A stretch of DNA of 22,000 nucleotides from a virus. The translations under genes and the position numbers were made by a program. The stretch lies in IMG/VR virus record IMGVR_UViG_3300032287_003646, positions 1-22,000 of that record. One strand, given 5' to 3'. Shown piece after piece: positions 5,568-20,993 of the stretch; positions within the stretch are counted from its first letter, which is position 1; each line of letters opens with the position of its first letter. Below the pieces are notes generated by a model. That model was not told the origin of the DNA, did no database searches, and was given only the letters and a program-made list of their open reading frames with translations.

Positions 5568-5635
5568 GCCACACTCAGTGTGTGGCAATGCTGAGTAGGG
5601 GGATTCGATCCCCCGGCATCACGCCTGGTACTCAG
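5568..5635 (-). promoter_or_regulatory. tRNA T-arm-like intercistronic element, copy A
   Basis: On the minus strand: CTGAGTA (containing the upstream gene's TGA stop), a 3-bp mini-hairpin GGC/GCC, then GGGGG-ATCGAAT-CCCCC, a 5-bp stem with a 7-nt T-loop-like loop, then TACTCAG closing the 7-bp outer stem. ATT and a 7-bp hairpin (GCCACAC/GTGTGGC) follow, ending 12 nt before the next ATG. There is no D-arm, anticodon arm or CCA, so it is not a working tRNA. Confidence 0.72.
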
Positions 5636-5814
5636 AATGGAAATGAATCAATCTCTAAAAGGTCTTGCTCCCAGTCATCAAAAGACTGGAAATAAGCCTG
5701 TGCTTGCTCTTCTGTCAAGTAATGCTTCTCGCATCCTTGGAAATAAGTGTCCGCAAATGTGTGATCACAGTCAGCATCAAAAGGATTGCGCTTGACTCGA
5801 ACGGAGTAATACAT
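5632..5814 (-). CDS. Acidic hypothetical protein, 60 residues
   Basis: ATG at 5812-5814 gives MYYSVRVKRNPFDADCDHTF. The frame is open much further upstream, but that stretch runs antiparallel through another gene and looks non-coding. Three aromatics, two Cys (16, 28) and an acidic C-terminal half (SFDDWEQDLLEIDSFPF) stand out. The beta-like start plus helix suggests a small alpha/beta fold. The start has no Shine-Dalgarno and lies 15 nt after element C; its stop codon sits inside element A. Confidence 0.68.
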   Translation of the reverse strand: MYYSVRVKRNPFDADCDHTFADTYFQGCEKHYLTEEQAQAYFQSFDDWEQDLLEIDSFPF

Positions 5815-5829
5815 GGTGTGTTGCGTAGA

Positions 5830-5897
5830 TGCCACGGTATTGTGGCAATAACTGGCCAGGGGTTTGCACCCTGGCACCCGCTTTAACGGATCAGCTA
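5830..5897 (-). promoter_or_regulatory. tRNA T-arm-like intercistronic element, copy C
   Basis: On the minus strand: TAGCTG (reaching into the TGA stop of the gene at 5891-6118) pairs with CAGTTA with one G-U; a mini-hairpin CCG/CGG; then CCAGGG-TGCAAAC-CCCTGG, a 6-bp stem with a 7-nt loop keeping the C56, A57, A58 and Y60 pattern of T-loops. TGCCAC/GTGGCA follows and ends 15 nt before the next ATG. The plan matches copies A and B despite different stem sequences. Confidence 0.62.
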
Positions 5898-6118
5898 TCC
5901 AGCATTTCGTCCACGTAGGACTTAATGACCTGGAGGTGATCGGCAGTAAGTGTCTGGCTATGGCCATGCTCAAGCAGATCAAGGATCTGAAGCATGACCT
6001 TATCCCCAGCCTCTTGCCGAGTCGGTACGCCACACATATCGTAAATCTCTTCTTGCGACATCGCAGTGATGTCAACGCAATCAAGGTTACGAACGGTGAC
6101 GGTGGTGGTGTTAGCCAT
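5891..6118 (-). CDS. Hypothetical protein, 75 residues
   Basis: ATG at 6116-6118 (MANTTTVTVRNLDCVDITAM), preceded by CGGAGCTACC, a clear Shine-Dalgarno; six further upstream codons are open but unsupported. A Thr/Val-rich beta-like start is followed by an acidic helical region (MSQEEIYDMCGVPTRQEAGD) and a C-terminal helix. Its stop lies in element C. No family recognised. Confidence 0.74.
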   Translation of the reverse strand: MANTTTVTVRNLDCVDITAMSQEEIYDMCGVPTRQEAGDKVMLQILDLLEHGHSQTLTADHLQVIKSYVDEMLDS

Positions 6119-6231
6119 GGTAGCTCCGTGAAACACTTGGGCTTACGCTGCTGAATTGCAGCTGCCAAGCAGGCTACCGATGGATTACCACCGAGTTGTC
6201 TGCTACGTTTAACGTCCAGCTTGACGGTAGA

Positions 6232-6396
6232 TCAAATAATAGGCGGACGCTTGATTTCAGGCTCTGGTTGAATCCAGTCAGCTAACTTACATCGTACTGC
6301 CCGGATGTCAGCCTGAATCATTTCCTTAGTCTGATCCTTCTCTAGTTTGACTGCTGTTGCCAGCAATACATTAGACAGGAACTTACGTACGGCCAT
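6232..6396 (-). CDS. Small helical protein, 54 residues
   Basis: ATG at 6394-6396 (MAVRKFLSNVLLATAVKLEK), with GGAG 5 nt upstream. The longer open frame to 6462 only translates element B. It begins with an amphipathic or weakly hydrophobic helix and continues as a charged helix, ending in Pro/Ile (EIKRPPII). It starts 12 nt after the last hairpin of element B, the same distance as the gene at 5555 has from element A. Function unknown. Confidence 0.68.
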   Translation of the reverse strand: MAVRKFLSNVLLATAVKLEKDQTKEMIQADIRAVRCKLADWIQPEPEIKRPPII

Positions 6397-6408
6397 GATG
6401 CTCCATAA

Positions 6409-6477
6409 GCCACACTCAGTGTGTGGCAATACCAAGTAGGGGGATTCGATCCCCCACCTCACGGCTTGTTACTTGGT
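6409..6477 (-). promoter_or_regulatory. tRNA T-arm-like intercistronic element, copy B
   Basis: On the minus strand: ACCAAGTA (overlapping the upstream TAA stop), a mini-hairpin GCC/GGT, GGGGG-ATCGAAT-CCCCC, then TACTTGGT closing an 8-bp outer stem. ATT and GCCACAC/GTGTGGC follow. The outer-stem bases differ from copy A, but every pair is kept, while the T-like arm and last hairpin are identical. This covariation argues for selection on RNA structure. Confidence 0.74.
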
Positions 6478-6672
6478 AGCGTAACCGTTATCTGTGCACC
6501 AATCCATGTGGATGTAATGTGCAGATGCAGGCCAGTCGTGTGTACGACACTGAAGTGCTGTAGCTTTATCAAGTTGCGCAACGCCTACTGTTGCCAGTAA
6601 TGCTGTAGCTCCTACACATGCCACTACCATGGCAATAAATAGAGCTGCAACTTTGTTAGGTGAAACGATCAC
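6469..6672 (-). CDS. Small membrane protein, GTG start
   Basis: 67 residues from GTG at 6670-6672, chosen because AGGAG lies 7 nt upstream. Residues about 8-33 form one TM helix (AALFIAMVVACVGATALLAT). The C-terminal part has QCRTHDWPASAHYIHMDWCT, with two Cys and several aromatics/His in a spacing (C..HDWP..AH..HMDWC) I recall from small membrane proteins of other phages. Probably anchored in the inner membrane with the Cys-containing tail outside. Role unknown. Preceded by a long structured leader. Confidence 0.75.
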   Translation of the reverse strand: MIVSPNKVAALFIAMVVACVGATALLATVGVAQLDKATALQCRTHDWPASAHYIHMDWCTDNGYATK

Positions 6673-6830
6673 GGGATTACTCCTGTGTGTGCGGTGCCTA
6701 TCTCCGCTGGAGGCAATAGCTAAAGGGAGAGTTGCACTCCCTCCTGCAATGATGCAGGGGACTACCCTTAGCCTGGGCTACCATTCTGTACCGCGAAAGC
6801 GGGGGATTGTAGCACACCCTAATTACGAGC
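6673..6830 (-). promoter_or_regulatory. Structured leader of the GTG gene
   Basis: 158 nt without a gene, but with much pairing potential: GCTAAAGGG near 6719-6727 against CCCTTAGC (6766-6773); an inner hairpin CCTGCA/TGCAGG with a 4-nt loop; CTCC/GGAG next to the ribosome site; and CCGC/GCGG around a 4-nt loop just after the putative start of transcription. I could not match it to a known riboswitch. It may regulate the gene at 6672 or be a small RNA. Confidence 0.4.
6806..6814 (-). promoter_or_regulatory. Extended -10 promoter candidate
   Basis: TGCTACAAT on the minus strand matches an extended -10 (TGnTAnAAT). No good -35 lies at the usual distance. It lies between the 16-bp palindrome (6831-6846) and the structured leader, a sensible start for transcription of the genes from 6672 leftwards. 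Confidence 0.4.
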
Positions 6831-20410: not shown

Positions 20411-20589
20411 GCTACATCTTGGAAGTACAAGAAGACAAAAACGGTGAGCAGTTTGTCATATTTCCGGACGACATCATAGACGATCTTGGTTGGCAAGAGG
20501 GTGACATTCTGGAATGGAAGCTGAAGGGTAATGGAATAATCTTAAGCAAACTTAACGACAGTGCTGGTTACGAGGTTATAGAAGAGTAA
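20407..20589 (+). CDS. Small AbrB/MazE-like protein
   Basis: 60 residues. MSYILEVQEDKNGEQFVIFP, then DDIIDDLGWQEGDILEWKLK and a closing strand (GIILSKL). The pattern of a strand, FP(D/E)..., LGW.EGD.LEW and a final strand matches the AbrB/MazE-type swapped-hairpin fold, and similar 50-60 residue proteins are, as I recall, frequent in cyanophages. The N-terminal basic DNA-contact residues of true AbrB are weak, so DNA binding is not sure. Coupled to the upstream TM gene by ATGA. Confidence 0.75.
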   Translation: MSYILEVQEDKNGEQFVIFPDDIIDDLGWQEGDILEWKLKGNGIILSKLNDSAGYEVIEE

Positions 20590-20593
20590 AATA
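20585..20593 (+). promoter_or_regulatory. Late motif AGTAAAATA
   Basis: Overlaps the TAA stop of the preceding gene; 19 nt before the ATG at 20613. Confidence 0.45.
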
Positions 20594-20612
20594 AAAACAA
20601 CGGAATAAAAAA

Positions 20613-20993
20613 ATGTTTTACCCAATGTACCTAGGCGGTGGTGATGTTCCTGGAATGGGAGGCAATAATAGCTACTTGGCGCAAGCGCGACCAAATCCAC
20701 TAACCGATCCAAGAAATAAAATCAAATACGGCGAAGGGTGGGGCCTTGGACCAACGCTTCCATTTACGGAACCAGAACGCGGCCCTCAAAATTGGAAACC
20801 ACTTCTGCCTCCTGGTCAGCCTTCAGTTCCGTTAGCATATGCAAATGGCTCACCGCCTATGGGCAATGCTGGTGTGGACGCAAAAGCTTTAGCTGATTTT
20901 CAAACTCTTCTTGACCAAGACACAGAAGCACGCCCGTGGAACAACCCAAAACCACAGATTCCAGTTGGGTTTGTAAGGTCTGGGCTTTATTAA
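20613..20993 (+). CDS. Gly/Pro-rich hypothetical late protein, 126 residues
   Basis: Starts MFYPMYLGGGDVPGMGGNNS. Mostly Gly, Pro and Asn with aromatic residues, so probably extended; a short helix (DAKALADFQTLLDQDTEARP) comes near the end. No domain recognised. Placed between the AbrB-like gene and the portal; a head- or packaging-related role is inferred from position only. Only a weak ribosome site (CGGA). Confidence 0.72.
   Translation: MFYPMYLGGGDVPGMGGNNSYLAQARPNPLTDPRNKIKYGEGWGLGPTLPFTEPERGPQNWKPLLPPGQPSVPLAYANGSPPMGNAGVDAKALADFQTLLDQDTEARPWNNPKPQIPVGFVRSGLY

Follow-up and report, generated by a model that had tools for sequence, protein, structure and literature searches.

Several described systems place tRNA-shaped or otherwise structured processing marks within long transcripts. 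In mitochondrial tRNA punctuation, tRNAs lying between the genes of a long transcript are excised by RNase P and RNase Z. The phage elements described here are the same kind of tRNA-shaped mark between genes, but they are not tRNAs, are only about 45-50 nt long, overlap the stop codon of the upstream gene and are predicted to be cleaved. Phage RNAs that are not tRNAs and are nevertheless met by tRNA maturation enzymes include the C4 antisense RNA of P1/P7 and M3 RNA; C4 forms an Rfam antisense RNA family (RF01695), which the cyanophage elements do not match, and the latter stand serially at gene junctions. Mimicry of the T-arm/acceptor helix is also shared with the tRNA-like structures of plant RNA viruses (TYMV type), yet these occupy genome 3' ends, are pseudoknotted and carry a CCA for aminoacylation, whereas the phage elements are internal and have neither an acceptor pseudoknot nor CCA. 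In eukaryotes, tRNA-processing enzymes cut the long RNAs MALAT1 and NEAT1 at a tRNA-like fold, giving mascRNA and menRNA, which unlike the phage elements are cloverleaf-like and occur once per transcript. The early region of T7 carries serial RNase III sites between its early genes; these are serial structured cut sites too, but long hairpins and not tRNA mimics.

The elbow and the stack of T-arm and acceptor stem are recognised by RNase P as well as by RNase Z (PMC4919913, PMC4810234). Bacterial RNase Z contacts the T-arm and acceptor stem and cuts directly after the discriminator base, where CC or CCA strongly suppresses it, and the majority of RNase Zs studied require that the 5' end be mature (PMC7479834). 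Our literature searches found no description of the element reported here: punctuation by tRNA-shaped marks and RNase P substrates of phage origin have precedents, whereas the serial, stop-codon-embedded minihelix form has none, within the literature searched.

Results

Four tRNA-like elements in a viral early region

The DNA analysed is a 22 kb virus fragment (the whole stretch is called the window below) whose early region is related to that of Synechococcus phage S-EIV1 (KJ410740), and a megablast search of the whole window against phages gave no match. Late genes including terminase occupy the plus strand, and the tRNA-like elements sit within a minus-strand series of small genes. A preliminary description had placed three such elements on the minus strand, all of which are present at those positions; a fourth copy at 6773-6718 had been missed, and the window thus holds four. 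They have a common plan, in which an outer stem encloses a T-arm with a 7-nt T-loop; the short linker ahead of the T-arm is usually a mini-hairpin, and element 4 has a longer one. In all four the 3' outer strand adjoins the T-arm with zero gap, as in a tRNA. After it come one or two bases and UU, and next a downstream structure, which is a hairpin in elements 1-3 and an H-type pseudoknot in element 4. The earlier wording of a 5-6 bp arm, in part one base away from the outer strand, had to be corrected for element 2, in which the arm has 7 bp (GCCAGGG/CCCTGGC) and abuts directly.

Element 1 (type A, 5591-5635, minus strand as all that follow) comprises the outer stem CTGAGTA/TACTCAG, the mini-hairpin GGC-GTGAT-GCC and the T-arm GGGGG[ATCGAAT]CCCCC, with the loop in brackets. 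It overlaps the TGA stop (5634-5632) of the small ORF that lies between it and element 2 (5632-5814), and directly after CA-UU comes the hairpin GCCACAC-ACTGA-GTGTGGC (5568-5586). Element 2 (type B, 5849-5897), with the outer stem TAGCTG/CAGTTA, the linker ATCCGTTAAAGCGGGT and the T-arm GCCAGGG[TGCAAAC]CCCTGGC, overlaps the stop codon TGA (5893-5891) of a small ORF at 5891-6136, which likely starts at an ATG near 6119; the hairpin GCCAC-AATACC-GTGGC (5831-5846) stands directly after UU. Element 3 (type A, 6431-6477) pairs ACCAAGTA with TACTTGGT in its outer stem, has the T-arm GGGGG[ATCGAAT]CCCCC and overlaps the stop codon TAA (6471-6469) of the small gene at 6469-6672, a homologue of S-EIV1 AHV82202; its downstream hairpin is GCCACAC-ACTGA-GTGTGGC (6409-6427). 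Element 4 (6718-6773) has the outer stem GGCTAAG/TTTAGCT, an extra hairpin CCCTGCATCATTGCAGG and the T-arm GGGAG[TGCAACT]CTCCC, lies in the leader before a small gene, where no listed gene has its stop codon, and is followed by the H-type pseudoknot GCCT-CCA-GCGG-AGAT-AGGC-A-CCGC (6691-6714). RNA folding of the elements alone returned the proposed structures, with z values of -3.5, -3.6, -4.3 and -3.2. A covariance model trained on type B scored element 2, itself among the training sequences, at 74.0 bits and element 4 at 14.6 bits (E 0.066).

Another gene junction of the window (6231-6120, minus strand) carries a different structured-looking element (ACCGTCAAGCTGGACGTTAAACGTAGCAGAC...) that has no T-loop; a similar sequence lies 3' of a type-B element in viral locus L015, and related CTGAGTATGAC..TTAAA..CTCA repeats occur between the early genes of S-EIV1.

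ARAGORN found no tRNA or tmRNA in the window, and Rfam at gathering scores gave no match, to c4 antisense RNA or any other family, in the window or at the elements of P-SSP7, Syn5, MyraDee, SA-TP2 and Odin described below. Under relaxed thresholds the one relevant weak match was that of element 3, which aligned end to end with the Rfam tRNA family RF00005 at 19 bits, below the gathering score of 29. With this score, the negative ARAGORN result and the absence of D and anticodon arms, ordinary tRNAs were rejected as an explanation.

A family across several phage groups

A search for related proteins with a large structural gene yielded few loci, and two DNA patterns were used instead, which retrieved at least 80 and 66 viral stretches, together at least about 125 distinct loci. 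The relatives amount to at least about 215 non-redundant elements in at least about 125 viral contigs and in the T7-like cyanophages P-SSP7, Syn5, 9515-10a, NATL2A-133 and S-CBP2. A descriptor made of the T-arm and the abutting outer stem gave 284 high-scoring matches in 1.2 Mb of related loci compared with 2 in dinucleotide shuffles; a few of the 284 are real tRNAs, whose linkers are much longer. A chance origin of the plan is excluded.

Type A combines the linker ACCAGGCGTGATGCC with the loop ATCGAAT and type B the linker ATCCGTNAAAGCGGGT with TGCAAAC, while cyanophage NATL2A-133 has a short-linker form, AGCTG-AAGGTGTA-GCGAGGG[TTCGACT]CCCTCGC-CAGCT. Generally the linker, which takes the place of the D and anticodon arms, measures 9-16 nt in most elements and is usually a mini-hairpin. 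When the loop was left free and only stems and tail were required, the recurring loops were all of T-loop type (TGCAAAC, ATCGAAT, TGCAATC, TTCGATT, TTCGACT and others); the 7-nt loop with C56, a purine at 57 and A58 is that of an acceptor/T-arm minihelix. Types A and B seem to be interchangeable, because the homologue of AHV82202 is followed by type A in the window and the S-EIV1 gene by type B, about 45 nt downstream. Strong type-B copies are present in 17 of 20 large virus records (75-88 kb), at one to three per record, and where a record has several they lie inside about 1.3 kb.

The training set of the covariance model included S-EIV1, S-CBP2 and the window; in P-SSP7, which was not part of it, the model matched positions 20631-20679 (E 1.1e-9), where the element stands upstream of capsid gene 10 and closes a short open reading frame. 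Within P-SSP7 20522-20679 a glutamine-II riboswitch directly precedes this short ORF, whose stop lies inside the tRNA-like element, upstream of the major capsid gene. A further P-SSP7 copy (975-1044) stands before the first annotated gene, the Syn5 copy before the capsid gene at no known stop codon, and a less regular one before the capsid gene of P60, while those of 9515-10a, NATL2A-133, S-CBP2 and P-SSP6 are found where early genes end. Forms with 12 bp right at gene ends occur in the mycobacteriophages MyraDee, Odin and Journey13 and in Streptococcus phage SA-TP2, and BLAST matched Odin's element in Adzzy and Superchunk. SA-TP2 again has its stop codon, here TAG, at the outer stem, with UU behind it; the mycobacteriophage copies have no UU after them. 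MyraDee additionally holds, at 40-112, a fold of 73 nt, the size of a tRNA, which lacks CCA and may be a degenerate tRNA. Many BLAST matches in Streptococcus and Mycobacterium were T-arm matches, often to annotated tRNA-Leu genes; of the few examined, SFi18 and 2972 gave no element. One real tRNA-Leu(UAA), mostly with encoded CCA, is present in several S-EIV1-like contigs (L010, L032, L048, L051, L056, L066, L072, L086, L104 and others).

No copy was detected in T7, lambda, Pelagibacter phage HTVC011P, S-CBP4, S-RIP1 or the Streptococcus phages 2972 and SFi18, which is weak evidence of absence because the strict threshold also misses S-EIV1, P-SSP7 and Syn5. An exact-pattern test with type B for host or prophage copies in 84,980 bacterial and archaeal genomes gave no match.

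Covariation identifies a sense-strand RNA

Pairing was scored on the named structure in 60 distinct type-B elements, in which 98.2% of the cells are paired and both sides changed in 10 of 15 pairs. Compensated cells numbered 194 versus 55.4 (sd 9.6) after shuffling, with 0 of 500 shuffles as high, although these counts are not probabilities, since the sequences are related. Covariation reached 0.586 versus 0.168 in shuffled data, and slid controls were far lower. In the seven-pair T-stem GC, CG, AU and UA all appear at single positions. The fetch pattern for type B had fixed the linker, the loop and, of the stems, only the G next to the loop, and the invariance of linker and loop is therefore partly ascertainment. 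For type A the pattern fixed the inner four T-stem pairs and the outer stem alone counts for pairing; about 27 distinct outer stems were found, nearly all of which pair at the best of several offsets, a choice that flatters pairing. The conclusion of covariation is safe because many pair types are involved and the pairing survives across unrelated upstream genes.

The wobble pairs tell which strand is folded: 94 type-B cores contain 74 G-U pairs and 3 A-C combinations, and G-U pairs would be A-C mismatches on the opposite strand, therefore the selected molecule is mRNA-sense RNA. The elements are thus tRNA-like RNA structures of the sense strand. The outer stems that had been reported to pair and covary on the basis of three copies do so in independent sequences, which also strongly support the likeness to a tRNA acceptor/T-arm and the role at gene junctions; homologues lacking covariation, which would have spoken against the preliminary description, were not seen. 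What it presented as three copies in a single phage is instead a family across several phage groups.

A tRNA-like ruler between stop codon and downstream structure

In a tRNA, 7 and 5 bp add up to a stack of 12 bp that is followed by one discriminator base. The T-stem and outer stem of the non-redundant elements together have 12 bp in 116 of 215 and 11-13 bp in 200 (93%), and the sum stays constant when the split between them varies (7/5, 6/6, 5/7). The T-loop lies 13 nt from UU in 182 and 14 nt in 29 of these elements, which had been picked for their TTRC tail. A second set (n=221) was chosen without a tail filter, for at least 11 of 12 pairs. Here the unpaired base after the 12th pair (N73) is A in 160 elements, about 95% have UU within 1-2 nt beyond N73, and CC is nearly absent; of the real tRNAs found in these phages, 10 of 12 have an encoded CCA. 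The abutment of T-arm and acceptor with about 12 bp in total is that of a minihelix, and the stack also has the elbow-to-cleavage distance of an RNase P substrate. The 3' flank, with an unpaired discriminator, no CC or CCA and a downstream U, is that of an RNase Z substrate; a downstream U is reportedly favourable for this enzyme (Pellegrini et al. 2012). RNase P substrates prefer G1:C72 and U-1, and neither preference is clear on the 5' side of the elements (-1: A66 C60 T57 G13; +1: A91 G52 T40 C13; 72: T139).

Counting open frames of at least 40 codons, an upstream ORF stops within -12 to +40 of the element's 5' end in 201 of 212 cases compared with 29% of random positions; the stop is TGA in 156, and in 119 its offset of +2 or +3 places it within the outer stem. 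A canonical RNase P cut would remove this stop in 185 of the 201 (about 92%). On the other side, right after UU, a hairpin is present in 114 and a pseudoknot in 91 of 214 tails (together 205), and the next start codon usually follows 30-50 nt further downstream. Stem 1 is paired in all of the 77 pseudoknots parsed and stem 2 in 72 of them, by alternatives such as GCGG/CCGC, GTGG/CCAC, GCAG/CTGC and AGGG/CCCT. The form GCCY-NNN-GCGG-AGAT-RGGC-A-CCGC, with a covarying second stem, occurs before start codons at window 6714-6691 (minus strand) and in 91 relatives, and this H-type pseudoknot may be a separate translation or stability element. At type-A and type-B loci the downstream start often has a second small hairpin, which contains the start codon together with a Shine-Dalgarno core (ACAGGAGAATCCTGTG) and recalls sequences associated with starts in mycobacteriophages.

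Discussion

We interpret the elements as minimal tRNA mimics within polycistronic mRNA that would be processed by host RNase Z, with or without RNase P, and assign this reading a probability of roughly 60%. In this reading pared-down tRNAs punctuate the message: each gene junction concerned has an acceptor stem and T-arm, a linker replaces the D and anticodon arms, and the host tRNA 3' maturase RNase Z would recognise elbow and helix and cut after the unpaired discriminator base. Such a cut would leave the stop codon on the upstream message and give it a blunt tRNA-like 3' end resistant to exonucleases; the message released downstream would carry, two bases in from its 5' end, a hairpin or pseudoknot. 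Cleavage on the 5' side may be the work of RNase P, chiefly at times when the stop codon is free of the ribosome; a terminating ribosome would cover the outer stem, and translation may in this way gate folding. The preliminary description had proposed an RNase P- or RNase Z-type substrate, and the anatomy fits either enzyme, but RNase Z is favoured because the 3' side consists of one base and UU, never CCA. The RNase Z reading is weakened because most RNase Zs studied require a mature 5' end, whereas the elements are preceded by an mRNA leader that would first have to be removed by RNase P, and such trimming would strip 185 of 201 stops. The 5' side without a clear G1:C72 or U-1 preference and the mycobacteriophage copies without a following UU also speak against processing.

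A wider version, to which we would not quite give even odds, is that a translation-gated, RNase Z-cut minimal tRNA punctuation operates in cyanophages belonging to two or more unrelated lineages, and also in some phages of actinobacteria and streptococci. In this version the RNase Z cut would perhaps be followed by CCA tailing, yielding separate protected messages, processing would sense ongoing translation of the upstream gene, and the copies in actinobacterial and streptococcal phages would be due to convergence or exchange.

The strongest competing view, in our opinion unlikely, holds that the T-loop is merely a compact stable loop and that nothing reads the element as a tRNA. Setting stoichiometry in operons is a known function of 3'-UTR stem-loops (PMC8219983). 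The stable folds at or after stop codons and the hairpin or pseudoknot that stands opposite them agree with this view, and a stable 3' structure could suffice without cleavage. However, a plain stability hairpin needs neither a T-loop nor a sum of about 12 bp with a movable split, nor a gapless junction of T-arm and acceptor, nor a fixed N-UU 3' flank without CCA. We also doubt that RNase P is the main enzyme, with a cut at +1 that deliberately creates non-stop messages and switches early genes off via trans-translation. RNase P does measure the T-stem-loop/acceptor stack from the elbow (PMC4919913), and the phage C4 and M3 RNAs as well as some mRNAs are known substrates (PMC11143913), but the bases at -1 and +1 show no preference, the conserved features are mostly on the 3' side, and the loss of a stop codon is costly.

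Quite improbable is a primary role in translation, in which stop or next start would be hidden or exposed, termination coupled to (re)initiation, or an intergenic tRNA mimic placed in the ribosome. The stop inside the outer stem of most copies and the second structure preceding the next start codon would suit it, yet that start is usually 30-50 nt away, the tRNA-like ruler is left unexplained, element 4 and the Syn5 copy are off known stops, and P-SSP7 975-1044 precedes the first annotated gene. In temperate phages T-arm sequences typically serve as attachment cores, and the same element types stand beside different small genes across genomes, with type A or type B after the same gene, as a site acting at the DNA level would have it, be it an attC-like ssDNA recombination site, an integration site or a relic tRNA gene for module exchange. 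Such a function is nevertheless very improbable, since the ratio of G-U to A-C of 74:3 and the single orientation to genes indicate selection on sense-strand RNA; the outer stems lack a conserved core box, and real tRNA relics would have neither compensated outer stems nor moving 5/7 splits. Integron attC sites proper, which fold from bottom-strand ssDNA and bear core boxes, do not resemble the elements and are rejected by the wobble asymmetry. Intrinsic transcription terminators, suggested by GC-rich stems 3' of genes, can practically be dismissed, because a U-run is lacking (tail UUGCC/UUACC), several elements stand in series between same-strand genes, and a terminator scan detected none of them.

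Taken together, the elements constitute an RNA family that Rfam does not contain, found in phages that infect marine and freshwater cyanobacteria, the laboratory models P-SSP7 and Syn5 among them. If cleavage is confirmed, mitochondrial-style tRNA punctuation would enter phage biology, the elements would indicate how little of a tRNA a maturation enzyme needs in vivo and could provide compact processing tags for cyanobacterial engineering, and the splitting of early and capsid messages in these phages would be explained.
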